Shown here one piece after another: positions 20,901 to 61,085 of a stretch of DNA of 61,328 nt. The DNA is from Bacteroidales bacterium. Lineage in GTDB: Bacteria > Bacteroidota > Bacteroidia > Bacteroidales > UBA12170. The stretch covers positions 1 to 61,328 of the forward strand of contig JAGGUP010000118.1 of NCBI GenBank assembly GCA_021158405.1. The letters are read 5' to 3'. Within the stretch, counting starts at the first letter, position 1, and the number at the start of each line of letters is the position of its first letter. The translations under genes and the position numbers were made by a program. The notes beneath the pieces were generated by a model. That model ran no database searches. It saw only the letters and a program-made list of their open reading frames with translations, and was not told the DNA's origin.

Positions 20901-22383
20901 GTTTCCAACCTCTATTCGGATGAATGAGCAATATTGTGGGTGCATTATTATCATTATTCTTCTTTAAAATATTCACCCAGTTTGGAACAACAATATCCAT
21001 TGTCTCTTCTGTAAGTTTAAGGCTTTTAGATGCATCGGAGATAGTCATTGGCATTTCGAGTACATTTGTTTGAACACCACTAAACGCTTCGTTTGTTCTT
21101 TGAAAATAAGGGAAATTTGTTAAAACATCGTTTGCACTATTTGTTGAATTAAACTCAAAATTCAAATCTGACATTACATTTGTCAGACGTAAATTAAATG
21201 CTAGATAACCAGATCTAAATGAACGAACATTAGCTCCAATATCTGCATTCAAAAGATCTCTTGAAACCTCTAATTCTCCTGTCACGGTTCCTCCGGTAGT
21301 AATGCCATCTGCATAAACAGGGCGATAACTTTCTTCCGTATTTCCCGAGCTTCCAATTGGAAAGATGGATAAACTGCCAAAATCAGAAAAGTGACCAACC
21401 GAATGGCTTCCAATACCATGACCATTATCGAATAATTTTTTTATTTTAGGGATAGATTCAGAATTATAATATGCGCTCATATGTTCATCACGAAGGTAGT
21501 GTGTTGTTACAAAATAATGTGCTTTTATATTGTTATTTGCTTCCCATTCTGAAAAATAATACATCGAATCCATTCCTGTCCTACTATCAATATCATGAGT
21601 TATTAGTAATGCTGAAGTTGACAATCCGGGTGAAGTATGTTTATAAATACTTACTGCCTGATTACTGGTATAAATAGCACGCAGAAAAAGGAAAAACACA
21701 TCTGTAGTCGGCTCAAAACCATTTGACCATGTTCTTTGAGCACTGTAATCTTTATTTAATAAATTCCTTAGTATTACATCTTGTAATTTAAATCCAAAAG
21801 CATATGCTTTTCCACTTCCAAAATTATTTACTGTAACAGCTGCCGTTTGATCATCAAATGAAGCTAACTTAATAGCAGAAGAATTTGTATAACCTCTGCT
21901 ATAAATAGAACGAGCATAATCTGTTCTGGCGAAAGGTAATTCTTTCTCAAGATCATCATTTATCCAGCTAAGCTCCGGGTGATTAGAATCAGCATCCCAA
22001 ATCATTTTATATCGATTCGTATTGTATGATGAATTAGAAATACCAAAGAGCTCAAAATATGCCGAATTACTTATATATGAGGCAACTAAAACACCTCCAT
22101 TAGCAACAAAATTGCTTAGTTGTAAAATTTCACCAGCCTCTAATGTACCCTCTTTCAAAGGGGAAGTTGCCAAAATAAAAGGATTTGCTATAGCTTCTCC
22201 AACATTTGTTGTAATCAAATATGGCATTCCAGCCACTTCGGCCATCTGAATCGCACTTGCAAGATTTTCTTTATTGATTTCGCTATTACGTTCACATAAA
22301 TCAAGAATAGCCAAGCGATGATTTTGGCCAAAACTATTTAATACAAAAAATAAAAAAATGGCTTGAAGGATGAACCGTTTCAT
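17965..22383 (-). CDS. T9SS-secreted protein with two tandem polysaccharide-deacetylase modules
   Basis: A 1472-residue exported protein. After a signal peptide (residues 1-20) a module of about 580 residues occurs twice, at about 23-600 and 797-1380. Each has a GATase-like front part (RLAILDLCERN; SRVAILDLTDRN) and a NodB-type deacetylase part with ITHD (261-264 in copy 1) and GSHSVGH (H327 and H331; GSHSVTH in copy 2). A spacer (600-795) with beta-rich sequence and a proline-rich end (VDPDPEPIPTE) separates them. A T9SS type A sorting tail (FNLFPNPAKGF, YSRGIYLINF) closes the protein. NodB enzymes remove N-acetyl groups from glycans; the target is unknown. Confidence 0.85.
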   Translation of the reverse strand: MKRFILQAIFLFFVLNSFGQNHRLAILDLCERNSEINKENLASAIQMAEVAGMPYLITTNVGEAIANPFILATSPLKEGTLEAGEILQLSNFVANGGVLVASYISNSAYFELFGISNSSYNTNRYKMIWDADSNHPELSWINDDLEKELPFARTDYARSIYSRGYTNSSAIKLASFDDQTAAVTVNNFGSGKAYAFGFKLQDVILRNLLNKDYSAQRTWSNGFEPTTDVFFLFLRAIYTSNQAVSIYKHTSPGLSTSALLITHDIDSRTGMDSMYYFSEWEANNNIKAHYFVTTHYLRDEHMSAYYNSESIPKIKKLFDNGHGIGSHSVGHFSDFGSLSIFPIGSSGNTEESYRPVYADGITTGGTVTGELEVSRDLLNADIGANVRSFRSGYLAFNLRLTNVMSDLNFEFNSTNSANDVLTNFPYFQRTNEAFSGVQTNVLEMPMTISDASKSLKLTEETMDIVVPNWVNILKKNNDNNAPTILLIHPNRGWKLEALQRLIAQKPASVITYEFDAFGDFWLERGALDFDYTLNENSLSINFANDNSIGEAQSIVISNGRNLDKIELFNLSGESLFFQSENWKENDIIITQIGLGIIEPTPKQYSLIINSQDENSQNLNDVNWELLSADSTLIGSGNTGSNALDTLQFVNINSNLEIILKTNKSEYTDYRVVTTISAEQEIVKITTNSLLTYFFQLDVTAKDETGAELDNITAKAFLFGDLLMEGESLENTIASLETNQAGHSLDLQVIIGRNGYISSDSISIHIIESQVYELTSSLIKVEVVDPDPEPIPTEILNSRVAILDLTDRNGETDKENLASVVQMADVAGIPYFVTTSLEEASEMKFMLVTSEINDETLNSSELSELKTWVSEGGILIAPFIKNTELFNLFGIETTKLDKYRYTLNWIDEPAFSELKWLDDPLEKSIPLADPTYYKSIYTRGYTVSTALPMAYFEDNNVAVCRNDYEKGRAYAFGVEWKDVILRNLLDKDYKAQRTYSNGFEPTSDVFMLVLRAIFTENQEVAVYKHTSPGESTSALLITHDVESRKIIATMNYFSNWEFIQGISAHYFVATHYFKDAYMSAYYEEANFDKIRELLERNHTIGSHSVTHAPDFYKTSVFPIGQQGNTRFSYQPYYNGSNTVGGTVYGELEVSRDVLNDDINANVRSFRAGALAFNPRIANVMQELGYSFNSSQSANNVLTNFPYFQRTNKAFSGSQTNVLELPLTLTDISSTNKLVETNIDEVVAIWADVLSGNNRNNAPTTLLISPNREWKLQALQGLLASAPEGVITYNFEDFGDYWLDRKALDFDYTLNESILTIKIKSDLAPAEDLSLVIVNGTKISQFIVINSLGQSVPFSVKSWNTDDILISFGQPSQTIREKNTAKIDVEALVEESQFNLFPNPAKGFVNLLFDMALKEEYKIRITDMNGRLITTYSGIAEEGSAIQRIDLASYSRGIYLINFESATVRETLKLSITD

Positions 22384-45320: not shown

Positions 45321-45926
45321 ATGAATAAAGGACAACAAAAGACAACTAATCTCAAAAGTGAACATATTCTACTCAAGAATATGTTATGTAGTTGTTGTAT
45401 CCAAATGCTCAAGAATAGCCTCATTCAATTGGGTATTGAAGTTTTAAGTATCAAATTAGGCGAAGCCCAAATTGCCTACGACCCAAAGATCACCACGCGA
45501 AAACAAATCGTAGAGGCGGTTGAAAAGATTGGTCTAGAATTGATTACCGACAAAAACCAAGCTGTTGTTGAAGAAATAAAGCAGACTGTCATCGAGCTTA
45601 TCCATTATATGAACAATGTGAATTCCGTGGTTAGAAAATCTGAATATTTGGTTGAGAAAATGGGAAAAAGCTATCAAACTTTATCTAAATTGTTTTCCAA
45701 ATATGAACCCATCACCCTTGAAAAATTCATCCTTTTACAGAAGATAGAAAGGGTAAAGGAATTAGCTTTAGATGATAAGTATACACTCAGTGAGATTGCT
45801 TGGATGATGGATTATAGCAGCCCACATCATCTTTCTAATCAATTTAAGCAGCTGGTTGGCGTATCACTTTCCGATTATAAAAAGAATCCCGCAGTATATA
45901 AAAAACCTATCAATCAGATCTATTAA
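45321..45926 (+). CDS. AraC-family regulator with N-terminal HMA-like domain
   Basis: 201 residues. Residues about 14-75 resemble a heavy-metal-associated (HMA) fold: KNMLCSCCIQMLKNSL has M21-x-C23-x-C25-C26, followed by GEAQIAYDPKITTRKQIVEA. A helical linker leads to the AraC DNA-binding domain (about 115-195): IERVKELALDDKYTLSEIAW, MMDYSSPHHLSNQFKQ. Such proteins are common in Bacteroidota and probably sense a soft metal. It lies 77 bases after the AGCS gene; the target is unknown. Confidence 0.8.
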   Translation: MNKGQQKTTNLKSEHILLKNMLCSCCIQMLKNSLIQLGIEVLSIKLGEAQIAYDPKITTRKQIVEAVEKIGLELITDKNQAVVEEIKQTVIELIHYMNNVNSVVRKSEYLVEKMGKSYQTLSKLFSKYEPITLEKFILLQKIERVKELALDDKYTLSEIAWMMDYSSPHHLSNQFKQLVGVSLSDYKKNPAVYKKPINQIY

Positions 45927-46128: not shown

Positions 46129-46175
46129 TACAAAATTATGTAATAGCTAATTAAACCTTCTGCTATAATTTTGTA
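46129..46175. promoter_or_regulatory. -7 box (46166-46173) within an 11-bp inverted repeat; possible operator
   Basis: TACAAAATTAT (46129-46139) is repeated in inverse as ATAATTTTGTA (46165-46175). The second copy contains TAATTTTG, a -7 element 20 bases before the ATG at 46193. The symmetrical copy would be a -7 box for the opposite strand. It probably drives the eight-gene operon, and the symmetry could bind a dimeric regulator. Confidence 0.5.
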
Positions 46176-46192: not shown

Positions 46193-46456
46193 ATGATTAT
46201 TACAGAAGAAATAAAAATAAGTGATAACGGATTTGTTTTCAATTCGCGCACTGGAGATTCTTTTAACCTGAATCCATTTGGCTTAAATATCATAAAATTA
46301 ATTGCCGAAAAAAAAGAATTTGAACAAATTAAAGAAAAGGTTCTTGATGAATATGATATCAGCGATCTCACATTCGAGAAAGATTTTTATGAGTTTTGTG
46401 CTCTATTAAAACATCATCAAATTATACTGCAAGACAATCCTCTTGAATTCAAATAA
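46193..46456 (+). CDS. PqqD-family protein
   Basis: 87 residues with the PqqD/RiPP-recognition-element-like pattern: a beta-hairpin start (IKISDNGFVFNSRTGDSFNL), the NPFGLNIIKLIAEKKEFEQI helix, and a winged-helix-like C-terminal half (LDEYDISDLTFEKDFYEFCA, LLKHHQIIL). PqqD-type proteins bind leader peptides and present them to a modifying enzyme. It is first in a tight operon, 12 bases before an ATP-grasp gene. No PqqA, PqqE or radical-SAM gene is adjacent, so this is not PQQ synthesis. Confidence 0.8.
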   Translation: MIITEEIKISDNGFVFNSRTGDSFNLNPFGLNIIKLIAEKKEFEQIKEKVLDEYDISDLTFEKDFYEFCALLKHHQIILQDNPLEFK

Positions 46457-46468
46457 AATTTTTGAGCT

Positions 46469-47515
46469 ATGCAAAAAATGAAAATTACTATCGCAGTAAC
46501 TGGCCTTAATAATACAGATAACCCAGGTCCAGGAGTTCCTGTTATTCGATCACTCAAAGAATCTTCCGCTTTTGAACCCATAATTATTGGGCTTGTCTAC
46601 GAAAATCTTGAGCCCGGTATTTATATGGAAGATTTATGCGATAAAATCTTTCAAATCCCATATCCTTCTACTGGTTCTGAAGAATTACTTGAGCGAATTG
46701 AAGATATCCATCAAAGAGAAAAAATTGATGTCTTAATTCCCAATTTTGATGCTGAATTATTTTCATTTATGAAAAATGAAAAACGATTGCTCGAAAAAGG
46801 CATCCATACTTTCCTTCCCACACTCAAACAATTTCAGGAAAGAGATAAAGACAGACTCCCCGATTATGGGAAGAAGTACGGCATAAAAGTTCCGGGGAGC
46901 ATAAATATGGGGAGCATGAATCAAATTTCGGAAATTAAAGAGAAATTTGATTATCCCGTCATGGTAAAGGGTAAATTTTACGATGCTTATTTGGCCTACA
47001 ATCCAGAACAAGTAAAACAAGCCTTCAATAAAATATCATCCAAATGGGGTCTGCCAGTAATTGCTCAAGAATTTATTAAAGGTACAGAAGTGAATGTTGT
47101 AGCCCTTGGCGATGGCCAAGGAAATACGATTGCCGCTGTTCCCATGAGAAAACAATACATAACGGATAAAGGAAAAGCTTGGGGTGGAATAACGCTGTCA
47201 GACGAAAAAATGCTGAACCTCACACGACAGCTTATACGGAAAACAAAATGGAAAGGGGGCATGGAATTAGAAATGATAAAAACTATGCAAAACGAATACT
47301 ATCTAATTGAGATTAATCCCCGTATTCCGGCCTGGGTTTATTTGGCTGTAGGCGCCGGGCAAAACATCCCTGAAGCCCTGGTAAAACTGGCTTTAGAACA
47401 AGAAGTTGCTCCTATGGAAGATTATGAATCGGGTAAAATGTTTGTTCGTTATTCCTACGATATGATCGTCGACCTAGAAAAATTTGAAAAAATATCAATG
47501 AATAGAGAAATTTAA
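46469..47515 (+). CDS. ATP-grasp family ligase
   Basis: 348 residues. The N-terminal domain begins KITIAVTGLNNTDNPGPGVP, a glycine-rich Rossmann-like start similar to carbamoyl-phosphate synthase and carboxylate-amine ligases. The ATP-grasp fold follows: FDYPVMVKGKFYDAYLAY (ATP lysine), VIAQEFIKGTEVNVVALGDG and the Mg-binding YLIEINPRIPAWVYLA. It should join a carboxylate to an amine or thiol through an acyl phosphate. The partner substrate is unknown. It lies between a PqqD-like gene and a PLP-decarboxylase gene with gaps of 12 and 4 bases. Confidence 0.82.
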   Translation: MQKMKITIAVTGLNNTDNPGPGVPVIRSLKESSAFEPIIIGLVYENLEPGIYMEDLCDKIFQIPYPSTGSEELLERIEDIHQREKIDVLIPNFDAELFSFMKNEKRLLEKGIHTFLPTLKQFQERDKDRLPDYGKKYGIKVPGSINMGSMNQISEIKEKFDYPVMVKGKFYDAYLAYNPEQVKQAFNKISSKWGLPVIAQEFIKGTEVNVVALGDGQGNTIAAVPMRKQYITDKGKAWGGITLSDEKMLNLTRQLIRKTKWKGGMELEMIKTMQNEYYLIEINPRIPAWVYLAVGAGQNIPEALVKLALEQEVAPMEDYESGKMFVRYSYDMIVDLEKFEKISMNREI

Positions 47516-47519
47516 AGTT

Positions 47520-48860
47520 ATGGAAAAATTAATATATGAAAAGCCGGTCATAAGTAAGATCAACGCTGGAATGCCAAGCAAATTCGGATTACCTGTTAAA
47601 CAAAAAATTATTTCAGAGATAGATGGTCTGGCCATTTCCGATTTGATGGAGAAATTTGGATCACCCGTTTTTGTATTCTCCGAAAAAACCATTCGGGAAA
47701 CCTATTCGGAAGCCAAAAGAGCTTTTGAAACACGCTATCCCAAAGTACAATTTGCTTGGTCGTATAAAACCAATTACCTAGATGCCATTTGTAGTATTTT
47801 TCATGAAGAAGGTTCATGGGCCGAAGTTGTTTCGGGTTTCGAGTTTAACAAAGCTTTATCTCTAGGTGTAAACGGCTCTCAAATCTTATTCAACGGACCC
47901 GAAAAATCTGAAGCCGATCTTACCTTAGCCATCGAAAACAATGCCAGTATCCATATCGACCATTTTGATGAGCTCTATCTTCTAATTGAGACTGCACGTA
48001 AATTAAATAAAAAAGCCAGAGTCTCTATCCGTATCAATCTGGATGCCGGTATTTATCCCATCTGGGATCGTTTTGGATTCAATTATGAAAATGGCGAAGC
48101 ATGGAATGCAATCAATCGAATTATGCTTGCCGACAACCTGGAACTCATAGGCTTACATACGCATATTGGCACTTATATTATGGTTGGCTCTGCCTATGCT
48201 ATAGCCGCATCAAAACTTGCAAATCTCTATGTTGCCATTCATCGAAAGTTCGATTATTGGTTAAAATATATTGATTTAGGAGGAGGATTTGCTTCTAAGA
48301 ACACACTCAAAGGGGCTTATATGCCCGGCACAGAAACTTGTCCCTCCTTCGATGATTATGCAGAAGCCATCACCAATGCCTTAATCTCTTCGGAGATTCC
48401 ACACGAAAACCTACCTCTTCTTTTCCTTGAAACAGGAAGAGCAATGATAGACGATGCCGGTTATTTGTTAACTACAACTTTAGCCAATAAACGTTTGAAT
48501 AATGGAAAGAACTCTTTGGTAATCGATGCCGGAGTAAATTTATTATTCACATCCTTTTGGTATAATTTAGGTATTTTCCCTTCTAAAGAAACTTCTAGTT
48601 TCACGGAAGAAACTACCATTTATGGTCCATTGTGCATGAATATAGACGTCATTCGTGACACCATTGTATTCCCACAAATCAAAGTTGGTGATCAACTTGT
48701 TATTGAGCGTGTTGGAGCTTATAATGTAAGTCAATGGATGCAGTTTATAAATTACAGACCCAATGTTGTTTTAATCGATTTAGAAGGGAAAACGCACATC
48801 ATTCGCAAGCGTGAGAATCTGGAAACTTTTAAATCATTAGAATTTAATCCAAAGCTATAG
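47520..48860 (+). CDS. fold-type III PLP decarboxylase (LysA-like) with leader-like N-terminus
   Basis: 446 residues. The alanine-racemase-type barrel has PLP lysine K83 in AWSYKTNYLDA, H213 and H215 in GLHTHIGTY, a phosphate-binding GGG at 254-256, ETGR at 304-307 and a C-terminal C372-x3-D376 motif (YGPLCMNID), as in diaminopimelate and ornithine decarboxylases. The substrate loop is not that of a standard LysA. About 35 residues precede the fold and begin EKLIYEKPVISKINAGMPSK. Y6-x-x-P9 followed by a hydrophobic and G17 resembles leader motifs bound by RiPP recognition elements. Co-occurrence with PqqD makes this noteworthy, though it may be an ordinary extension. Confidence 0.82.
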   Translation: MEKLIYEKPVISKINAGMPSKFGLPVKQKIISEIDGLAISDLMEKFGSPVFVFSEKTIRETYSEAKRAFETRYPKVQFAWSYKTNYLDAICSIFHEEGSWAEVVSGFEFNKALSLGVNGSQILFNGPEKSEADLTLAIENNASIHIDHFDELYLLIETARKLNKKARVSIRINLDAGIYPIWDRFGFNYENGEAWNAINRIMLADNLELIGLHTHIGTYIMVGSAYAIAASKLANLYVAIHRKFDYWLKYIDLGGGFASKNTLKGAYMPGTETCPSFDDYAEAITNALISSEIPHENLPLLFLETGRAMIDDAGYLLTTTLANKRLNNGKNSLVIDAGVNLLFTSFWYNLGIFPSKETSSFTEETTIYGPLCMNIDVIRDTIVFPQIKVGDQLVIERVGAYNVSQWMQFINYRPNVVLIDLEGKTHIIRKRENLETFKSLEFNPKL

Positions 48861-48869
48861 TAAAACAAT

Positions 48870-51092
48870 ATGGGGGAAAATTTAAAAATAAAGATTCACG
48901 ATGTTATCTCTTCAATAATAAACAGCTATTCTCAAGTCTTTTTTTCCAAAGATAAAGTCTTGGCTATCTTGTTAGTCATTATTAGTTTCTTTGATTTTGG
49001 AGCGGGTATTGGAGGTTTAATTGCTGTTATTATTGCCAATCTTCTGGCTTATTATTTAGGCTATAATTCCTATCTTTTAAAATCGGGACTGTATGGATTT
49101 AACAGTCTTTTGGTAGGCTTAGGAATTGGATTGATTTATCAACCCTCTATAGAATTATACGTACTCATTGCGATTGCAGCGGTAAGTACTTTTTTCCTGA
49201 CCATTGTTTTTCAGGGTGTCTTAGGGAAATATGGTTTACCCTTTTTAAGTGTTCCTTTCTTATTGAGTATTTGGATAGTGAGTCTGGCGGGCAGCCAATT
49301 AACCGCATTAAACATCAGCGAAAGAGGTATCTATACTTATAATGAGCTTTATGCCTTAGGTGGAAATAATCTCATAAACCTATACAATTGGCTCGATTCA
49401 TTTATCAGTTCATCTTTTCTTCGTACTTATTTTTATTCGCTGGGGGCTATCTTCTTTCAGAAAGGACTCTTGGCTGGAATAATCATTTCACTCGGATTAC
49501 TCATCTACTCCAGAATAACCTTTGTACTTTCCTTTTTGGGTTTTACGGTAGCTTATTTGTTTTATGCACTTGTTGGCATTGGCTTCGACTCCCTCAGTTA
49601 CACCTTTATAGGATTCAATTATATCTTAACAGCTATTGCTTTAGGAGGTTATTATTTAATCCCGGGAAAAGTGAGCTATTTGTGGATTATTCTGCTTTTA
49701 CCCACTGTGGTTTTAATTACCATAAGTACACAACAAGTCTTTCTTTTATTGAATATTTCTCCCTATTCGCTTCCTTTTAACATCGTGGTATTAAGCTTTC
49801 TTTACGCTTTAAAATTAAGAGAAAAGAGACCAAATAAACTTATTGAAACACCAGTACAATTGGGAAACCCGGAAAAAAATCTTTATCTGCAATCAGGTAA
49901 TTTAAAGCGTTTTCCTGTCAACTTTCCTGTTTCAGCTTCACTACCTTTTTATGGCGAGTGGAAAGTAAGTCAGGCACAAGATGGTAAAATAACCCATCAA
50001 GGAGCATGGCGACATGCCTGGGATTTTATTATCACCGATAAAAACGATAAACAATATAAAGGCCAGGGAGATTATCCCAAAGATTATTTTTGTTTTGGAA
50101 AAGCGATAGTGGCACCTTACGAAGGAAAAGTAATCGAAGTCATTGATTCCATTCCCGACAATACTATTGGAGATATAAACACCAAAAATAATTGGGGAAA
50201 TACGGTAATTATCGAACATTTTTCCAATATTTACACACAATTGAGTCATTTAAAATACCATTCCATTGAAGTAAAACAAGGAGATTATGTAAAACAAGGT
50301 CAATCTCTGGGAAAATGCGGAAACTCTGGACGTTCGCCCTACCCTCATTTACATTTTCAATTCCAAAGCACACCTTTTATTGGTTCTCCAACTTTGGAAT
50401 ATCCAATCGGAAATTACCTTTTGAAAACAGACAAAATCGCTCTCAAAACCTTTTCGTTTCCAGAAAATAATCAACATCTTGTCAATCCAACGATAAACGA
50501 TTTATTGGCCAAGGCATTGCATTTTATTCCCGGCCAAAGGATTAGCGGTAACATCAGAATTGAATCTATAGAAAAAAAAGAAATCCTGCATAAAAGTGAT
50601 TTTCATTGGGAAGTCAATACCGACGTTTACAATACGACTTACATCTCCAGTAAAGAGGATAAATCGCTAGCCTATCTTTATAACGACGGGAAACTACACT
50701 ATTTTACAAATTTTACCGGTAAGAAAGAAAGTCCACTGTATTGGTTTTTCCTAGCCTTATTCAAAATCCCTCTTGGATTTCTTCCTCAAAGTACAATTCA
50801 GGATCAGATTCCTGCCAATTTACTCTTTAAAGGCCCCATAAAACTACTTCAGGATTTTATTGCGCCTCTTTATCTTTTCTTAAAAGTAGACTATCATTTA
50901 GAAATAAAAAATACCGGCGATATACTCTCGGCTGATGATATAAAAATGCATTCGGTTCTCAAGAAGAAAATTGCAGGAAAAGAAAGTTCGAAATACAATT
51001 TCAGCCTCAATATTGGGCAAGAAGGCTCTTTTGAAATCGAAATAATCCATAAAGACATCAAAATACAACTGTTATGTGGAAACGCTATCTAA
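48870..51092 (+). CDS. urea transporter-like membrane domain fused to M23 peptidase domain
   Basis: 740 residues. Residues about 20-310 hold about ten hydrophobic helices with SLC14-type urea-transporter features (FDFGAGIGGLIAVIIANLLA, GLYGFNSLLVGLGIG, and a second half beginning GLLAGIIISLGLLIYSR). Residues about 350-510 are M23/LytM-like: WRHAWDF (H382, D385), VIIEHFSNIYTQLSHLKYHS, GDYVKQGQSLGKCGNSGRSP and H493-L-H495. The C-terminal 230 residues are beta-rich and unassigned. The peptidase part should face the periplasm if active. The last 19 bases overlap the next gene. Confidence 0.82.
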   Translation: MGENLKIKIHDVISSIINSYSQVFFSKDKVLAILLVIISFFDFGAGIGGLIAVIIANLLAYYLGYNSYLLKSGLYGFNSLLVGLGIGLIYQPSIELYVLIAIAAVSTFFLTIVFQGVLGKYGLPFLSVPFLLSIWIVSLAGSQLTALNISERGIYTYNELYALGGNNLINLYNWLDSFISSSFLRTYFYSLGAIFFQKGLLAGIIISLGLLIYSRITFVLSFLGFTVAYLFYALVGIGFDSLSYTFIGFNYILTAIALGGYYLIPGKVSYLWIILLLPTVVLITISTQQVFLLLNISPYSLPFNIVVLSFLYALKLREKRPNKLIETPVQLGNPEKNLYLQSGNLKRFPVNFPVSASLPFYGEWKVSQAQDGKITHQGAWRHAWDFIITDKNDKQYKGQGDYPKDYFCFGKAIVAPYEGKVIEVIDSIPDNTIGDINTKNNWGNTVIIEHFSNIYTQLSHLKYHSIEVKQGDYVKQGQSLGKCGNSGRSPYPHLHFQFQSTPFIGSPTLEYPIGNYLLKTDKIALKTFSFPENNQHLVNPTINDLLAKALHFIPGQRISGNIRIESIEKKEILHKSDFHWEVNTDVYNTTYISSKEDKSLAYLYNDGKLHYFTNFTGKKESPLYWFFLALFKIPLGFLPQSTIQDQIPANLLFKGPIKLLQDFIAPLYLFLKVDYHLEIKNTGDILSADDIKMHSVLKKKIAGKESSKYNFSLNIGQEGSFEIEIIHKDIKIQLLCGNAI

Positions 51093-52411
51093 TTCTCAAT
51101 TTAATACTGATTTTTGCATCTGGTGTGTTTGCTCAAAACAAACTGAATTACACCCAGATAGAAACAAAATCCTATGCGCTTTATCAAGCCAAAAATTGGA
51201 AAGAATTAATCCGGTTTTCATCGAAAGCACGAAAACAAGGAGTCGATTTCTTCTATTTACAAGCCCGTACCGGAATTGCACTTTATAATCTTGAGAAATA
51301 CCGCCAAGCGGATAAATGGTTTTTAAAAGCTTATGAAGCAGATCAGTCTTTCGATTGGTTGCAAGAATACCTTTATTATAGTTTATTTTTTAGCGCACGC
51401 TATACTGAAGCTTCAAAATATGCCGCTCTTTTTCCGAGAGCAATGCAAAAGAAACTAAATTATTCAGCCTCGGGTGTTCTACGTGTATCCTATGAAACCG
51501 GTTTTAGTTTTAATCCTGACTTCGAAGAATTAAAGAACCGTCAATTCAAAGATGAAATCAATTTAGGCAGTGATTACGGAGAAGGTTATTTCTTGAAAAA
51601 CTACAACTTTCATTCTTTTACACTCAGTCATCGGCTATCGCCTAAAGTGGTCTTAAATCATAATCTGACTTACATCAGTGTGAATAGAGAAACTCTTGTC
51701 GATTGGGAAGGTGACCACAGCAATTACCCAACAAAAGTGCATCAATACCAATACTATATCAATCCGGTATTAAGTTTAGGGAAGAAATTAAATGTTTCCT
51801 CTGCCTTGAATATTATTTTTGGAAATAATGAAGTGTATACAGGCTGGAAACCAAGTGAAACAACAAAATCGTATAGCCTAACAAAATCCAATTATAGCAA
51901 CATTGTTTTCGCCACTTCTGTTTGGTCTGATTTTGGGAATTTTTCTCCCGGTTTTGAAATCGATGCCGCTTCGGTAAATTCATCTCGATTTATTCAACTA
52001 TCGTCATGGCTAACACTGTATCCACTCTCCAACACCAAGTTTTATTTTACACCCAAAGTTTATTTTAAATCCGGTACCGATGATCAAACCGCAGGATGGA
52101 CTGCTTTTAGTTTTTCAGGAGAGGCACAGTTAGGATCCATTCATCTCACCGGAGAATATTTGTTTGGAAATATGAACAATTTTATAGGAGCAAACGGCTA
52201 TATCGTCAATAATTTTCTGGGCAAATCGGATCATAAATTAACGGCAAGTCTGTTTTTTCCCATTGGAAAGAATCATATTCTTTTTATGCGTTATTTAAAT
52301 CAAAATATCAACGAAGATTATCGGGTTTATGTTAATACGGAAATTTCTAACACTCTAGAATACAATTATACAAAACAAACATTAACAATTGGAATAACAT
52401 GGAATTTATAA
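51074..52411 (+). CDS. YaiO-like outer-membrane beta-barrel with N-terminal TPR
   Basis: 445 residues. A signal peptide (about 1-20, LIFASGVFAQ) is followed by TPR-like helices (about 28-130: YALYQAKNWKELIRFSSKAR, GIALYNLEKYRQADKWFLKA). From about 140 to the end are alternating strands of a barrel (HSFTLSHRLSPKVVLNHNLT, FSFSGEAQLGSIHLTGEYLF) ending QTLTIGITWNL with a terminal aromatic-hydrophobic pattern. It resembles the YaiO family of barrel proteins. The role is unknown. It overlaps its neighbours on both sides (19 and 13 bases). Confidence 0.75.
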   Translation: MWKRYLILNLILIFASGVFAQNKLNYTQIETKSYALYQAKNWKELIRFSSKARKQGVDFFYLQARTGIALYNLEKYRQADKWFLKAYEADQSFDWLQEYLYYSLFFSARYTEASKYAALFPRAMQKKLNYSASGVLRVSYETGFSFNPDFEELKNRQFKDEINLGSDYGEGYFLKNYNFHSFTLSHRLSPKVVLNHNLTYISVNRETLVDWEGDHSNYPTKVHQYQYYINPVLSLGKKLNVSSALNIIFGNNEVYTGWKPSETTKSYSLTKSNYSNIVFATSVWSDFGNFSPGFEIDAASVNSSRFIQLSSWLTLYPLSNTKFYFTPKVYFKSGTDDQTAGWTAFSFSGEAQLGSIHLTGEYLFGNMNNFIGANGYIVNNFLGKSDHKLTASLFFPIGKNHILFMRYLNQNINEDYRVYVNTEISNTLEYNYTKQTLTIGITWNL

Positions 52412-53022
52412 GAAAATTTATCGGTATCATTGCTCTAATACTCATGGCAAATATCAGTTTCTCACAAAGCAATCAAGCCGCCTTGGAATCTGCTTTTACA
52501 AAAAGCTATGTTGCCGAGAAAAACGGTGATTTCTCACCTGCAATGGATGCCTTAAAAAAAGTATACGACGAATCATCTTACGAATTAAACTTACGACTGG
52601 GTTGGCTCAACTACAATGCCGGTTTATTTGATGAAGCCATTATATTTTATAGCAATTCGCTGAAGCTAAAACCCTATTCAGAAGAGGCTCGCTTTGGTTT
52701 AATTCTTCCTTTGTCGGCCTTAGGAAAATGGGATAAGGTCATTAAAACATATAACAATATTTTGGAACTCAGTCCAAACAATTCCGTAGCATTGTACCGT
52801 CTTGGGCTAGTATACTATGGTCGTAAGGATTATAACAAAGCCTATGCTCTTTTCAATAAAGTAGTAGATTTATACCCCTTTGGCTATGATGGTTTATTAA
52901 TGTTAGGCTGGACATCTTATTTCTTGGGAAACAATAATCAGGCAAAGGTGCTTTTCAATAAAGTGAACCTATACAATCCCGGCGATAAGTCAGCAAACGA
53001 AGGTCTTAATTTAATCAAATAA
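52399..53022 (+). CDS. exported TPR-repeat protein
   Basis: 207 residues with a signal peptide (about 1-22, MANISFSQ) and about five TPR units from residue 28: YVAEKNGDFSPAMDALKKVY, LGWLNYNAGLFDEAIIFYSN, GLVYYGRKDYNKAYALFNKV, LGWTSYFLGNNNQAKVLFNK. It probably scaffolds periplasmic interactions. Its start overlaps the barrel gene by 13 bases, and its repeats resemble the barrel's TPR half, suggesting the pair acts together. Confidence 0.8.
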   Translation: MEFIRKFIGIIALILMANISFSQSNQAALESAFTKSYVAEKNGDFSPAMDALKKVYDESSYELNLRLGWLNYNAGLFDEAIIFYSNSLKLKPYSEEARFGLILPLSALGKWDKVIKTYNNILELSPNNSVALYRLGLVYYGRKDYNKAYALFNKVVDLYPFGYDGLLMLGWTSYFLGNNNQAKVLFNKVNLYNPGDKSANEGLNLIK

Positions 53023-53030
53023 AAAAAGCT

Positions 53031-53828
53031 ATGAAACGGATTATTTTATCAGGTTGGTTTATTTTTTTAGTAACTGTTCTTTATGGTCAAATTACGCTCC
53101 AAAAAACCTACGACTATTCTGCTTCGGTGGTGAAGCTCGAAACGCTTGGCTATAAATATTATCTGATGGATGTTCCGAATAGCCAGTGCAGGATATACAA
53201 CATGGATCATTCCATATTTAAAACGATAAATTGCGATGTTCCAAACGGATATTACCTTTCTGATATCAAGTATATTTCGGAAAACCTGTTTAATACAGAC
53301 TCTAAAATTGAATTAGCCTACACTTATTACAAATATATAGAAACTACAACTTCATATTATTACATCTATGGTTCTCGAATAACTAACGAAAGCGGCACTA
53401 CAATTCTATCAATTGATAATGCTCAATATATTTATGTCAATCAAACAGATGTGAATGAGTTTAAATTGTTTGCATATTGTTTAGATTATTCTGTTTTCCC
53501 TGAAAGTGTTTGGACCAATATTTACAGTCTACCTGGCTCTTTAGTTTCAGCAATTGATTTCTCCGATAACAAACCAAACCTTTCTTTAAATGCTTATCCA
53601 AATCCCACCAATAAATCCGTTAGGGTTGAATATAAACTTCCGGCTGACGTAAAAAATGCCAGCTTATATCTTATTGATTCGAATGGAAGAGAGGTTAGGA
53701 ACTTTTTAGTTGATGGGCATTCTAATTTTCTGGCACTCAATGTCGATAACCTTTCAAAAGGAGTTTACTTCTATTTTATTGAATACGAAAGCCTTCGCTC
53801 AGAATCGAAGAAGATTATTGTTCAATAA
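53031..53828 (+). CDS. small T9SS-secreted protein of unknown function
   Basis: 265 residues. A signal peptide (about 1-20, TVLYGQ) is followed by a Tyr-rich beta domain (about 22-175, with TYDYSASVVKLETLGYKYYL and YYIYGSRITNESG) that I do not recognise. A T9SS type A sorting domain follows (LNAYPNPTNKSVRVEYKLP to YFYFIEYESLRSESKKIIVQ). It is the exported member of the operon, 8 bases after the TPR gene and 8 before the next. Candidate surface product or scaffold. Confidence 0.75.
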   Translation: MKRIILSGWFIFLVTVLYGQITLQKTYDYSASVVKLETLGYKYYLMDVPNSQCRIYNMDHSIFKTINCDVPNGYYLSDIKYISENLFNTDSKIELAYTYYKYIETTTSYYYIYGSRITNESGTTILSIDNAQYIYVNQTDVNEFKLFAYCLDYSVFPESVWTNIYSLPGSLVSAIDFSDNKPNLSLNAYPNPTNKSVRVEYKLPADVKNASLYLIDSNGREVRNFLVDGHSNFLALNVDNLSKGVYFYFIEYESLRSESKKIIVQ

Positions 53829-53836
53829 CTTAAATT

Positions 53837-54868
53837 ATGCAACGAAACCCCTTGCCCGATTTACTAAAAGGATTTGCCGTATTCCTTATTATTCCTGTTC
53901 ATATTCTGGAAACATTTATCGATTATCCTGGTAGGGAAAGCTTATTCGGTAAAACCCTTTTATTACTCGGCGGTCCCATTGCAGTGCCCATTTTTATGGT
54001 GGTAATGGGTTATTTTGTTGCAATAAGCAAAAAAAACACGGCACAGAATATTTTCAGGGGAATGCTTATTTTTTTGCTCGGTTTTTTATTAAACATAGGA
54101 TTGAATTTTCATTTGCTCTTAAAAATTAAGTTTGAAGGTTGGCAACTTGATCCGCTACAATATATTTTTGGCGTTGATATTTTTTATTTGGCAGGATTAA
54201 GTATCATTCTCCTTTCTGTTTTAAAAAACATTAAAAAAGGTCAACAATGGATTACTCTGGCTCTCATTCTTTTCATTAGTGGGTCAACTGCATATTTAAA
54301 TAATCTATTGATGGTAACCGATAGAAATTATATCCTGCCTTTTATAGGAGGCGAATATTCTTGGTCCTATTTCCCACTATTTCCATGGTTAAGCTATCCA
54401 TTGATTGGTTTTTTATTCCAAAAGACAGAGCTCCAGATAAGACAATTTATTCAAAAGAGGAAAATAGTTTCAATTGCTATTCTATCATCCATACTCATTC
54501 TGGTGGCTTCTTTTTCCGGATATGGTATAAAATCAACAATCAACCTACCAGAATATTACCACCACACTTTTTTGTTTTTCCTATGGACATTGGGAGTAGA
54601 TGTATTATGGTTTCTATTACTCTGGTTTATAGCGCAAAAATTCGCTAAATTCCCACTAATTGTTTTTCTTCGATGGCTTGGGAAAAATATCACGGTTTTT
54701 TATGTTATCCAATGGCTCATTATTGGGAACATTGCAACTGCCATTTATCAAACACAACAACTTTCTACATTTGGATACTGGTTTGGAGCAATATTCCTGA
54801 TTACCATTTTTATAACTTTTCTTTACGAACAAATAAAAGTGAAGTATATCAAATCTGTTTCAAATTGA
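53837..54868 (+). CDS. acyltransferase-like multi-pass membrane protein (HGSNAT/DUF1624-like)
   Basis: 343 residues with about ten hydrophobic helices. NPLPDLLKGFAVFLIIPVHI matches the start of heparan-alpha-glucosaminide acetyltransferase-like and acyltransferase-3-like proteins (D-x-L-R/K-G, then a histidine). FLRWLGKNITVFYVIQWLII near the C-terminus is also typical. Such proteins transfer acyl groups across the membrane to glycans or lipids. Last gene of the operon, before a bidirectional terminator. Confidence 0.7.
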   Translation: MQRNPLPDLLKGFAVFLIIPVHILETFIDYPGRESLFGKTLLLLGGPIAVPIFMVVMGYFVAISKKNTAQNIFRGMLIFLLGFLLNIGLNFHLLLKIKFEGWQLDPLQYIFGVDIFYLAGLSIILLSVLKNIKKGQQWITLALILFISGSTAYLNNLLMVTDRNYILPFIGGEYSWSYFPLFPWLSYPLIGFLFQKTELQIRQFIQKRKIVSIAILSSILILVASFSGYGIKSTINLPEYYHHTFLFFLWTLGVDVLWFLLLWFIAQKFAKFPLIVFLRWLGKNITVFYVIQWLIIGNIATAIYQTQQLSTFGYWFGAIFLITIFITFLYEQIKVKYIKSVSN

Positions 54869-54954: not shown

Positions 54955-54996
54955 AAGAGCCCTGATTCATTATCTATAATGAATCAGGACTCTCTT
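54955..54996. terminator. bidirectional hairpin terminator
   Basis: CCTGATTCATTAT (54961-54973) pairs with ATAATGAATCAGG (54976-54988), with GAG/CTC flanks. On the minus strand a short T-run follows (CTCTTTTATT), and on the plus strand CTCTCTTTCTT. It separates the operon from the convergent sigma-factor pair. Confidence 0.75.
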
Positions 54997-56210: not shown

Positions 56211-57325
56211 TAATATGATTTTAAGCTGCCGCATATTTAATTGATTTATGATAAAAGAATCGGGTAACTCTCTTTGCGTTTTTTTTGCAAAAAAATCATA
56301 TGAGATTTTACATTTGATTTCATCTGTTTTTCATTCTTAGGTGATTGTTTTAGCCCTATCCCACTTTTTAAATCATTATTCAAATACTTATCTGGATTTA
56401 TTTCAGGAGAGTACGATGGAAGATAAAACAGCTCTATTCTATTTGTATTTTTCTCAACCCACTGTTTAACAAGCATACTGTGGTGCACTTTTAGATTATC
56501 CAATATTAGATAGATTTTTTTATTAGCACCTTTTATTAATCGCTTTAGAAATATTATAAGTCTTTGAGCATTCATAGTTCCATTATATGTCATAAACCTT
56601 ACCTTTCCTTGATTTGTTACTGTAGAAATCATATTAAGGGATATCCGTTTTGCCATTGTTGTTTTTGTAGGTGTTTGACCTATTTGAGCGTATGACCGCC
56701 CATAATGGCTTGTGTTTCGGATTCCTGTTTCATCTCCCCAATGTATTTCTGCATTTTCAACCTTTGCTTTCTTTACTATAGCTGGATACTCTTCAATTAA
56801 CCATTTTTGAACACTTTTAGCATTCTGCTCATAAGCTTTCTTTTTTGGTTTTTGTGGAGAAAAGCCCCATCGTTTAAGGTAAGTTCCCATTGTGCGTATT
56901 GCTATTTTGATATTGTATTGACGTTTTATAAGCTCAACAATAGCCTTCCTTGTCCATAATCCAAATGGTAACTTTAGCTGATCTGGCATTTTGTCAATTA
57001 TTATATTCTGAATCTCTTTTTCTTGCTTAGCACTCAATAATCGTCCTATACCTTCATCATGTCCTTGCTTTTGGTCTTTTAACCCCTTTATCCCATTATG
57101 ATTGTATCTTTTAACCCACTGATAAATTGTGTTCTTATGAATGTTTAATAAAATAGCTATCTCTTTTTGACTCTTCCTTTGTTTGTAAAGTTTTATTGCG
57201 ACAAGCCTTAATGCTTCTTTTTTCTCTTTTTTCGCATTGCGTAAATCATGTTTTTCCATGATACAAAGATTAGAAAAATATATTAATTAATCATATTATA
57301 AATAAACCGACTTAATATAATATTT
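56211..57325 (-). mobile_element. IS630-family insertion sequence (approximate ends)
   Basis: The transposase gene is flanked by weak inverted ends: TAATATGATTTTAAG (56211-56225) on the left and, inverted, AAATATTATATTAAG (57311-57325) on the right, matching at about 12 of 15 positions. A clear TA target duplication is not visible, so boundaries are provisional. It lies between the ECF sigma genes and the nrf cluster and could influence the latter's promoter region. Confidence 0.55.
56221..57259 (-). pseudogene. IS630-family transposase, probably inactive
   Basis: The frame encodes a helix-turn-helix front (IAILLNIHKNTIYQWVKRYN) and a DDE domain with D176 (HWGDETGIR) and D254 (LILDNLKVHH). 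The expected third acid in SPEINPD-E is K291 (codon AAG at 56389-56387), which should abolish catalysis. A frame change in an eight-A run (56279-56286) makes the frame end in KESYPILLS. In the other frame the family-typical tail VTRFFYHKSIKYAAA continues to a stop at 56221. Confidence 0.75.
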
Positions 57326-58969: not shown

Positions 58970-59551
58970 ATGTCAAGCATTTTAAAAGCAATTTTACCTC
59001 CTCCCGGATGGCAGTTTACAGTGGCCATTGTAGCTGGTGTGCTTTTTGGTTTGGCGGTATATGTGCTTTACATTTCCAACGCGGGTTCCTATCTATCTAA
59101 CGACCCTAAAACCTGTATCAATTGTCATGTTATGAATCATGAATACGCCTCATGGTTCCATAGTTCGCATAGAGAAAATGCAAGCTGTAACGATTGCCAT
59201 GTTCCTCAAGACAACATCTTTAACACTTATTTCTTTAAAGCAAAAGATGGTTTAAGGCATGCTACCGTTTTTACATTACGACAAGAGCCTCAGGTAATTA
59301 GGATTAAAGAAGAAGGTGCCAAAGTGGTACAAAACAATTGTATTCGTTGTCATAACGAATTAATTACCGACCGCAAGATGTTATCCTATAACAAGTCTTT
59401 CGATCATTTCAGAACCAAAGGTCGCCAATGTTGGGAATGTCATAGAGAAGTGCCACACGGAAGGCTAAATAGTCTTTCTGCCGCGCCAGATGCACTAATA
59501 CCGGAAACTAAAAATCCTATTCCGGAATGGATTAAAAATATGGTTAAATAA
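58970..59551 (+). CDS. nrfH: cytochrome c nitrite reductase small subunit, quinol dehydrogenase (NrfH)
   Basis: 193 residues. An N-terminal membrane anchor (about 16-38, TVAIVAGVLFGLAVYVLYI) is followed by four CxxCH haem sites: CINCH, CNDCH, CIRCH and CWECH. NrfH of the NapC/NirT family oxidises menaquinol in the inner membrane and passes electrons to NrfA. It follows the porin gene after 26 bases and precedes nrfA by 22. The menC-menE genes here supply the quinone. Confidence 0.94.
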   Translation: MSSILKAILPPPGWQFTVAIVAGVLFGLAVYVLYISNAGSYLSNDPKTCINCHVMNHEYASWFHSSHRENASCNDCHVPQDNIFNTYFFKAKDGLRHATVFTLRQEPQVIRIKEEGAKVVQNNCIRCHNELITDRKMLSYNKSFDHFRTKGRQCWECHREVPHGRLNSLSAAPDALIPETKNPIPEWIKNMVK

Positions 59552-59573
59552 AAAAACTAAAAAATAATATATT

Positions 59574-61085
59574 ATGAGTACTCAAAGAAAACCAATAGTA
59601 AATTGGATAATATTTTTCGCCACAATAGTGGTGGTATTCTTTCTTGGTTTGTTGGCCTCGTCCATCACCGAAAGAAGATCAGAAGAGCCTGTTGCTTTAA
59701 AACCTCAGGTTGAAATAGCTCAGTTCGATCCCCGTAACGATGTTTGGGGAAAGAACTACCCAACACAACATGAATCTTGGGAAAAAACCGAAGAAGGTGA
59801 TTTCAGATCCAAGTACAATGGCAATGCCATGATTGATATGTTGGAAGTTGATCCAAGATTAGTCGTGATGTGGGCAGGATATGGCTTTTCTAAAGGCTAT
59901 AATCAAGGGAGAGGTCATCTTCATGCCATAGAAGATATTAGAAATATCTTAAGAACAGGCGGCCCAACAGGCGATAACGATGGGCCAATGCCTTCAACTT
60001 GTTGGACTTGTAAATCTCCCGACGTTCCTCGTATAATGAACGAAGGCGGTGTAACGGAATTTTATACAGGAAAATGGGCCAGATTAGGTGCTGAGATTGT
60101 GAATCCTATCGGTTGTGGCGATTGTCATAATAGCGAAACTATGGAACTTCAAATTTCTCGCCCAGCATTGGTAGAAGCCTTTGATAGACAAGGAAAAGAC
60201 ATTCAGGATGCTACACATAACGAAATGCGTTCTTTAGTATGCGCTCAGTGTCATGTGGAATATTATTTCGATAAGAAAAGAGAAGGTAGCGAAGGTGCTG
60301 CATATCTCACTTTCCCTTGGGACAACGGTACAAAAGTGGAAGAAATGGAATCGTATTACGATGCAAAACAATTTAAAGATTGGACGCATAAATTAAGTAA
60401 AGCACCAATGCTTAAAGCTCAGCATCCAGGATACGAAGTTTTTTCAATGGGAATCCATGGCGAAAGAGGTGTTAGTTGTGCCGATTGTCATATGCCTTAT
60501 ATGACTGAAGGTGGACGTAAATATACCGATCATCATATTCAATCACCATTGAATAACATTGAAAACTCTTGTATGGTTTGTCATAAAGAGAAAACTGAAA
60601 CTTTACTCAAAAACGTATACGATCGACAAGACAAGATTATTGAAAATCGCGATGAGCTAGAGAAATTATGTGTTCGCTTACATGTTGAAGCTAAAACAGC
60701 TTGGGATTTAGGTGCTACTGAAGATCAAATGAAAGACATCTTAATGGATATCCGTCATGCACAATGGCGCTGGGATTATGCTGCCGCTTCTCACGGAGGT
60801 TCTTTCCACGCTCCTGTTGAAATTTCTAGAGTTATTGCCACAGGTATTAACATTGCTCAAGAAGGCAGAATTAAACTTGCAAGACTACTTATGACCCTTG
60901 GTTATTCAGGAGAAGTTCCTTATCCAGATATTTCTACTAAAGCTAAAGCTCAGGAATTTATCGGAATGCCAATAGAAAAACTTATCAAGGAGAAAGAAGA
61001 GTTTAAGAAGAACTTGATACCAAAATGGGATAAAGAAGCACAAGAAAGAGAATCAAAAATGACAACAACTTACGTTAATAAATAA
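59574..61085 (+). CDS. nrfA: ammonia-forming cytochrome c nitrite reductase (NrfA)
   Basis: 503 residues with an N-terminal hydrophobic signal or anchor (about 10-28). The catalytic haem is bound by C143-W-T-C-K147, with lysine as axial ligand, and four CxxCH sites follow (CGDCH, CAQCH, CADCH, CMVCH). Active-site residues fit the family: QCHVEYYF (Tyr) and HPGYEVFSMGIHGERGVSCA. It reduces nitrite to ammonium with six electrons in the periplasm. Length is usual for the pentahaem enzyme. A hairpin follows it before the cytochrome c maturation gene. Confidence 0.96.
   Translation: MSTQRKPIVNWIIFFATIVVVFFLGLLASSITERRSEEPVALKPQVEIAQFDPRNDVWGKNYPTQHESWEKTEEGDFRSKYNGNAMIDMLEVDPRLVVMWAGYGFSKGYNQGRGHLHAIEDIRNILRTGGPTGDNDGPMPSTCWTCKSPDVPRIMNEGGVTEFYTGKWARLGAEIVNPIGCGDCHNSETMELQISRPALVEAFDRQGKDIQDATHNEMRSLVCAQCHVEYYFDKKREGSEGAAYLTFPWDNGTKVEEMESYYDAKQFKDWTHKLSKAPMLKAQHPGYEVFSMGIHGERGVSCADCHMPYMTEGGRKYTDHHIQSPLNNIENSCMVCHKEKTETLLKNVYDRQDKIIENRDELEKLCVRLHVEAKTAWDLGATEDQMKDILMDIRHAQWRWDYAAASHGGSFHAPVEISRVIATGINIAQEGRIKLARLLMTLGYSGEVPYPDISTKAKAQEFIGMPIEKLIKEKEEFKKNLIPKWDKEAQERESKMTTTYVNK

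Follow-up and report, generated by a model that had tools for sequence, protein, structure and literature searches.

The window analysed here, i.e. a whole stretch of 61,328 nucleotides of contig JAGGUP010000118.1 from a Bacteroidales bacterium (GenBank assembly GCA_021158405.1), encodes a cassette with the order PqqD-like protein, ATP-grasp enzyme, pyridoxal phosphate (PLP) decarboxylase, fusion of a urea transporter (UT) fold with an M23 peptidase domain, outer-membrane-type protein and tetratricopeptide repeat (TPR) protein. The PqqD-like protein is, by sequence, a recognition element of the lasso B1 type for ribosomally synthesized and post-translationally modified peptides (RiPP recognition element, RRE), and the analysis predicts with high confidence that it grips the N-terminal tail of the decarboxylase. 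This match of an orphan RRE to a putative tag on a decarboxylase is the best-supported new statement of this work. The six-gene unit as a whole seems to build and export a small molecule, both the product and the direction of transport being inferred. A first-pass annotation of the window had described an operon of the first four genes only; these are real and adjacent, all on the forward strand with gaps of 12, 4 and 9 bases, but the conserved cassette has six genes, those for the barrel-type and TPR proteins being added. The fifth gene overlaps the fusion gene by 19 bases, and the TPR gene overlaps the fifth by 13. The features of the cassette are as follows.

46193..46456, + strand: PqqD-like protein, predicted discrete RRE, 87 aa (PF05402, 2.1e-7); the codon of D64 lies at 46382-46384.
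46469..47515, + strand: ATP-grasp ligase of the carbamoyl-phosphate synthase-like (PRK12767) group (NF009405, 2.6e-30, under its cut-off; ATPgrasp_Ter PF15632, 3.1e-11).
47520..48860, + strand: PLP decarboxylase of the alanine racemase fold, FslC/FigC-like but distinct (Orn_Arg_deC_N PF02784, 1.6e-29; Orn_DAP_Arg_deC, 2.2e-12).
47535..47552, + strand: leader-like motif Y6-E-K-P9-V-I11 in the N-terminal tail of the decarboxylase, assigned from motif conservation and covariation with residue 64 of the PqqD-like protein.
47580..47588, + strand: K21-F22-G23, 3' of the motif in the same tail (173 readable tails).
48870..51092, + strand: UT fold (aa 13–314), M23 zinc peptidase domain (aa 410–499) and C-terminal region in one chain (Pfam).
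51074..52411, + strand: probable outer-membrane β-barrel, 445 aa, with an N-terminal TPR-like region and a signal-like start (sequence reading).
52399..53022, + strand: TPR protein with a signal-like N-terminus, probably periplasmic (TPR_2, 3e-20).

The assignment of the first gene product to the PqqD family, made already in the first-pass annotation, is borne out by the profile search, which retrieved this family and not an unrelated one (PF05402, 31.6 bits against a cut-off of 23.4). The profile of 18 PqqD-like members, compared with the solved structures, identified TbiB1 (5.6e-12) and TfuB1 (1.4e-8) as the best matches, followed by the lasso chaperone 9x90 (PbaB1, 6.7e-6) and PqqD (0.003); it is because the best solved matches are lasso B1 proteins that the protein is assigned to the RREs. 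In the crystal structure of LppB-LppA, D70 of LppB hydrogen-bonds the leader Tyr, F74 lies alongside the cleft and the kink at the Pro is fixed by N33 (PMC13381572); the window protein exhibits D64, F68 and N27 with the same spacing. In the family N27 is found in 168/168 and F68 in 163/168 sequences, and residue 64 is Asp or Asn in 120 of the 122 sequence sets with a Tyr in the decarboxylase tail and His in the remaining two. Two reports describe the leader motif recognized by discrete lasso RREs as [Y/W]xxPx[L/V/I/F/A] (PMC13381572; PMC12710340). With TbiB1, TfuB1, PbaB1 and LppB the cassette protein shares its size, its membership in the PqqD family, the residues of the cleft and a ligand motif of the form YxxPx[LVI]; unlike in those systems, this motif is part of the N-terminal end of a PLP decarboxylase. 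A role as a carrier protein of the BtrI or LysW type was rejected, since the C-terminus of the PqqD-like protein is not conserved (64 sequences).

The aligned part of the decarboxylase starts at residue 27 in the alignment to FslC and at residue 34 in that to the diaminopimelate (DAP) decarboxylases, and is preceded by a tail. Tail statistics were collected from 177 rows, 4 of them without a readable tail, with near-copies kept. The motif [YF]6, P9, [ILV]11 is present in 173/173 readable tails (Y6 in 129, F6 in 44), which follow the pattern [YF]-E-[RK]-P-x-[ILV] and deviate from it in a few cases only, at positions 7 and 8. K21 is invariant (173/173) and F22 and G23 are found in 150/173 and 170/173, respectively; positions 10, 12, 14–16 and 24–29 are highly variable. 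A motif of the form [YFW]xxPx[ILVFA] occurs within the first 40 residues of 1/66 ATP-grasp, 5/85 UT-M23, 2/72 TPR and 3/70 barrel-type proteins.

Covariation between the two proteins was calculated for every pair of PqqD and decarboxylase columns, initially from the 99 sequence sets that contain the three genes (98 from the 124 loci, one from the window). The pair PqqD 64/decarboxylase 6 came out on top (0.449, next 0.232): Tyr in the tail occurs with Asp (66), Asn (8) or His (1) in the RRE, and Phe with Tyr (13), Ser (8), Ala (2) or His (1). The pairing rule was fixed before new loci were fetched from 393 genomes drawn from the order, 150 of which carry the decarboxylase gene. The 74 new loci comprise 66 from the 68 newly drawn genomes in which the gene occurs, two with less than 140 bases upstream being omitted, and 8 (L230–L237) from genomes of the first draw that had not been fetched earlier at those genes. 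Both genes were found at 67 of them, one without a readable tail, and 65 of the 66 pairs tested fit the rule (Tyr with Asp 38, Asn 8, His 1; Phe with Tyr 12, Ser 5, Ala 2). As to the seven new loci without the PqqD-like gene, in five the contig extends no more than 251 to 954 bases 5' of the decarboxylase gene, L237 has 1,752 bases that are mostly taken up by the ATP-grasp gene, and L166, with 1,531 bases, is the one not clearly explained. For all 165 sets, the window counted, Tyr is found with Asp (104), Asn (16) or His (2) and Phe with Tyr (25), Ser (13), Ala (4) or His (1), and the mutual information of this pair after average product correction, 0.443, ranks first among 36,125 column pairs, the next value being 0.148. 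The strength of the covariation case lies in one predicted contact matching among tens of thousands, and in its replication.

The first-pass annotation had called the decarboxylase LysA-like, which we revise: in the profile comparison with solved structures the enzyme is closer to FslC/FigC (FslC 297 bits) than to the best DAP decarboxylase (220 bits) or BtrK (144 bits). LysA identity was rejected (TIGR01048, 220.3 bits against a cut-off of 297.9), and the true LysA of the host is encoded elsewhere (395 bits for the same model). The identity of an N-citrylornithine decarboxylase of the FslC/FigC type was rejected as well (NF041039, 244.3 bits against a cut-off of 500), the citrate residues being replaced. 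The active-site residues K83, H213, E304, R307 and C372 are retained, and the distal pocket (T344, W347, Y348, M373, N374, I375, Q405, W406, Q408) is conserved in 106 to 110 of 110 sequences. The cassette enzyme shares with FslC/FigC, its closest solved relatives in sequence, the Met next to the catalytic Cys (M355 of FigC) and the GAYN.S segment; it differs from them in having the leader-like tail, outside the aligned part, and in the citrate-binding His and Arg. These residues, H357 and R387, are modelled on citrate in FigC (PMC7857480); their equivalents by alignment are I375 and Q405, conserved in 109/110 and 108/110 sequences. The cassette enzyme has CMNID at the place of CES or CET in the aligned DAP decarboxylases. 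The segment and loop contain neither the acidic residue of the ornithine enzymes nor the Arg of the DAP enzymes, which suggests a larger neutral substrate, presumably the same molecule throughout the phylum.

In the ATP-grasp enzyme, E207, N209 (99%), E266, E268, E281, N283 and R285, which we take to be of the type that catalysis requires, show little or no variation in the alignment of 102 sequences. Its nearest solved relatives, the large chains of carbamoyl-phosphate synthase and 2pn1, give no hint of the substrate. The combination of a small protein, an ATP-grasp enzyme and a decarboxylase of the alanine racemase fold recalls the carrier protein BtrI, the ATP-grasp enzyme BtrJ and the decarboxylase BtrK of butirosin biosynthesis, from which the cassette differs in that its small protein is predicted to be an RRE, not an acyl carrier protein, and its decarboxylase is closer to FslC than to BtrK.

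The cassette recurs across the phylum Bacteroidota. Among 198 genomes of the order, the window's own counted, UT-M23 (threshold E 1e-90) was found in 85, the ATP-grasp gene (1e-80) in 83 and the decarboxylase (1e-100) in 82 (about 40%); any of the three is present in 88 and all three in 77, so that co-occurrence beyond chance, proposed earlier as a check, is indeed observed (pairwise Fisher p ~1e-45, relatedness ignored). UT-M23 served to collect 84 loci, 80 from the order and 4 from named metagenome-assembled genomes of Flavobacteriaceae, Dysgonamonadaceae, Ignavibacteriae and Paludibacteraceae. All three upstream genes are present at 57 of the 65 loci with at least 4.5 kb of room; the 8 exceptions have an ATP-grasp or decarboxylase homologue elsewhere in the genome, in one case (L104) on the opposite strand of the same contig. 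Downstream, the barrel-type gene is found at 60 and the TPR gene at 65 of the 70 loci with at least 2.5 kb of room. In a sample of the phylum the decarboxylase was detected in 34 of 395 genomes, the window's own counted, with other classes of Bacteroidota included. Regions were taken from 30 of the 33 further genomes, and at 30/30 of these loci the four genes follow in the same order on one strand, once (L153) with an extra open reading frame (ORF) between the PqqD and ATP-grasp genes; the TPR gene is present at 27/30. The genes are therefore regularly, not rarely, adjacent in other genomes. Two modules (PqqD/ATP-grasp/decarboxylase and UT-M23/TPR/barrel) become visible because they lie on different contigs in some genomes (L154–L163), part of which are draft genomes in many pieces.

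The usual partners of an RRE were sought around the cassette. RRE and PqqD proteins serve to find ribosomal peptide clusters, and the earlier remark that no radical SAM enzyme accompanies the PqqD-like protein holds for the same-strand neighbour families found at 4 or more of the 84 loci. Inspection of these families by eye, and the scan of 9 window proteins, revealed no lasso cyclase or leader peptidase, no search with a cyclase model having been run; among kinases there is a single sensor-kinase-like family, at 7/84 loci. In these respects, too, the cassette differs from the lasso and LppB systems. No siderophore synthetase or TonB receptor was found among the same families. A survey of ORFs encoding 20–110 aa, which covered the cassette genes with 1.2 kb of flank before and 0.8 kb behind them (860 candidates), gave no family at 3 or more of 124 loci, so the usual precursor is missing, although such a survey may overlook very short, divergent or unlinked peptides. 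The expectation that the PqqD-like protein presents a peptide to modifying enzymes was right as to the family, but no precursor peptide is conserved, and the most probable ligand is the decarboxylase tail. Membership in the lasso peptides or graspetides was rejected, there being no cyclase among the neighbour families and no precursor among the small ORFs; in the graspetide survey the main text does not contain the word "decarboxylase" (PMC8939145).

The fourth protein combines a complete UT domain (PF03253, 1.2e-54, 185.9 bits against a cut-off of 25, aa 13–314), shared with the SLC14/UT urea channels, with a Peptidase_M23 domain in the same chain (PF01551, 4.8e-16, aa 410–499) and a C-terminal region, both of which set it apart from those channels. 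It falls below the urea transporter equivalog (TIGR03441, 116.9 bits against a cut-off of 274.6). N78, F130 and N250 of the UT domain are conserved in 112–114 of 115 sequences, and H376, D385, H460, H493 and H495 of the M23 domain in 115/115 each; the first His precedes the Asp by nine residues, unlike the four that we assume for LytM. In one genome consisting of a single contig (L124:10923-13195), UT and M23 are two overlapping ORFs in different frames, either a natural split or a frameshift. The 445-aa protein ("YaiO", our own label) is a probable outer-membrane β-barrel, an assignment that we infer; it and 11 relatives match no Pfam barrel model at E 0.1, and TPR_2 was identified in 9 of the 12 family members scanned, but not in the window's own. 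On 7 of 12 printed maps (L135, L138, L141, L147, L149, L151, L152) the place of the barrel-type gene, beside the gene for TPR or UT-M23, is taken by one for a protein of about 290–320 aa; that of L149 shows a weak likeness to OmpG-type porins (5e-4, under the cut-off).

Such composition of the cassette is best explained, with moderate confidence, by a biosynthesis-and-export system in which the decarboxylase is docked through the RRE. The RRE ligand would be the [YF]xxPx[ILV] tail of the decarboxylase and not a ribosomal precursor; co-evolution is observed, and binding is predicted from it. Docking would probably place the decarboxylase beside the ATP-grasp enzyme, the RRE bridging the two. 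Judging from its family, the ATP-grasp enzyme might form an amide bond between two small molecules; the decarboxylase, judging from family and pocket, might remove the α-carboxylate of the neutral ligation product; the case for this ligation plus decarboxylation of a neutral amide is evenly poised. The UT channel, the M23 domain, and the TPR and outer-membrane proteins would then carry the small amide, whole or as a fragment, through the envelope. The first-pass annotation had proposed ligation and decarboxylation, and movement of a urea- or amide-like molecule by the transporter, in similar terms. Export is here given the same weight as import, in which the M23 domain would release a small amide that enters through UT; the presence of an ATP-using ligase in the cassette fits synthesis better.

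Several observations count against this explanation. His at PqqD 64 pairs with both Tyr (2) and Phe (1), and the tail columns taken together show no enrichment in the top 1% of column pairs (23 of 361, 19.4 expected), i.e. the signal is a single residue pair. The coupling between the RRE and the ATP-grasp enzyme has no outstanding pair (best 0.217 among 28,188), so that the bridging is conjectural. In a tree built from the ATP-grasp enzyme and the decarboxylase without its tail, each trait changes 8 times and 5 independent pairs lie on supported branches, a mean of 3.9 changing in the same way, 0 in the opposite way and 1.1 without difference (sign test, median p 0.125); with so few independent pairs, a phylogenetic origin of the pattern is not formally excluded, and much of the replication comes from related genomes that are not strictly independent. 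As to transport, the structure models are poor (pLDDT 51 for UT-M23, 5 sequences, and 48 for the M23 domain), and a product that is charged or large would not be expected to fit through a UT pore.

Alternatively, the tail could itself be a substrate, presented by the RRE to the ATP-grasp enzyme for modification, whereby the decarboxylase would be matured or would carry its substrate as on a swinging arm. K21 is the obvious site, being invariant among tail positions that, outside the motif, mostly vary, and it lies 15 residues after Y6, presumably about where the core of a lasso peptide starts after the leader. In RiPP clusters, discrete RREs hold on to the leader and bring modifying enzymes to it, as one survey states (PMC7470986). 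On the other hand, K21-F22-G23 may be a mere docking surface, no precedent was found among the literature matches listed, and family and structure comparisons assign no substrate to this ATP-grasp group; we regard this possibility as unlikely. Marginally less likely still is its fullest form, in which the RRE hands the tail to the ATP-grasp enzyme, the invariant lysine is modified, and the decarboxylase would be precursor, carrier and catalyst at once in a phylum-wide pathway with a trans-envelope exporter. Or perhaps the cassette belongs to an ordinary RiPP pathway with the precursor encoded elsewhere, the decarboxylase tail binding the RRE only to bring enzyme and precursor together? The cleft of the RRE is intact, and a PqqD-like protein encoded close to enzymes and transporters is regarded as a strong sign of a RiPP cluster (PMC7470986). 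This reading nevertheless appears rather improbable: the 124 loci share no conserved small ORF, the neighbour families inspected include neither a lasso cyclase nor a leader peptidase or radical SAM enzyme, and the RRE, in the two enzyme families tested, couples most strongly with the decarboxylase tail.

The relationship to N-citrylornithine decarboxylase, the nearest solved relative (297 bits; best DAP decarboxylase, 220), together with a dedicated subfamily of HMA-AraC regulators (see below), would fit a metallophore pathway like that of rhizoferrin or staphyloferrin B under metal-sensing control. The replacement of the citrate-facing residues, the lack of a siderophore synthetase or TonB receptor among the neighbour families at 84 loci and the incomplete CxxC of 8 of 18 aligned regulators make it quite improbable. 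A role in cell-wall or lysine metabolism, with the DAP-decarboxylase-like enzyme and the M23 endopeptidase acting on peptidoglycan fragments, would agree with the LysA-like fold and the fully conserved M23 residues, but the host has its true LysA elsewhere, the cassette enzyme scores under the LysA cut-off and it carries CMNID in place of CES or CET, so that this is the remotest of the explanations considered. Docking of the decarboxylase by the RRE remains the preferred reading. The earlier statement that no described pathway contains this set of genes agrees with the literature matches listed (open-licence full texts), among which there was likewise no description of a UT-M23 fusion or of an RRE binding an enzyme tail; the accessible parts of PMC8503589 and PMC10352776 hold nothing on this gene set. 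The cassette points to a pathway, as yet undescribed, in some 40% of the sampled genomes of the order and in other classes of Bacteroidota. RRE-Finder gave almost 8,000 hits to the discrete lasso RRE model, of which, as its authors report, only about 4,000 co-occur with lasso machinery (PMC7470986); the predicted docking would provide one concrete reason for such orphan RREs, namely that the ligand can be a tag on an enzyme.

The surroundings of the cassette contain the following further features; the same run of genes continues after the TPR gene with two genes at 8-base gaps and ends at 54868.

45321..45926, + strand: HMA-AraC regulator (Pfam HTH_18, 1.7e-12; HMA, 0.003, under the cut-off).
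46166..46173, + strand: TAATTTTG, putative -7 type promoter motif shortly 5' of the PqqD-like ATG (sequence reading only).
53031..53828, + strand: accessory protein with a type IX secretion system (T9SS) sorting tail (Por_Secre_tail, 9.5e-12).
53837..54868, + strand: accessory membrane acyltransferase, Acyl_transf_3/HGSNAT-like (9.1e-17).
54961..54988, + strand: terminator-like hairpin 3' of the last gene, weak in that 9 hairpins were found in the region against 7.1 expected.

The HMA-AraC gene ends 266 bases 5' of the PqqD-like gene. Its matches in the order fall into two groups, a subfamily in 37 genomes at 151 bits or more (two of these matches with internal stops) and paralogues at 140 bits or less. 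All 37 genomes with the subfamily carry cassette genes, and the subfamily is found in none of 110 cassette-free genomes (Fisher 4.6e-16, relatedness ignored); the paralogues are independent of the cassette (36/71 genomes). Since several genomes encode the regulator on a different contig, the association is more than neighbourhood. Simple metal sensing by this regulator was not upheld, CxxC being incomplete in 8/18 aligned members, and the HMA fold of the subfamily may sense something other than metal. TAATTTTG was compared with TAnnTTTG, which we take to be the Bacteroidota -7 promoter consensus; the promoter and terminator scans of the region gave results at about chance level, and the Rfam search returned no match in it.

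A homologue of the T9SS-tailed protein is present in the fetched region at 13/124 loci and one of the acyltransferase at 12/124; at L035 and L053 the acyltransferase gene stands between the decarboxylase and UT-M23 genes. About 1.3 kb beyond the terminator-like hairpin lies an IS630-type transposase-like ORF (56246-57259). Reading of the translations also revealed, at 17965-22383, a 1472-aa secreted protein that ends in a T9SS-like region and consists of two halves resembling each other, both with an apparent polysaccharide-deacetylase-like segment, and, at 58970-61085, multihaem cytochromes resembling the NrfH/NrfA nitrite reductase pair.

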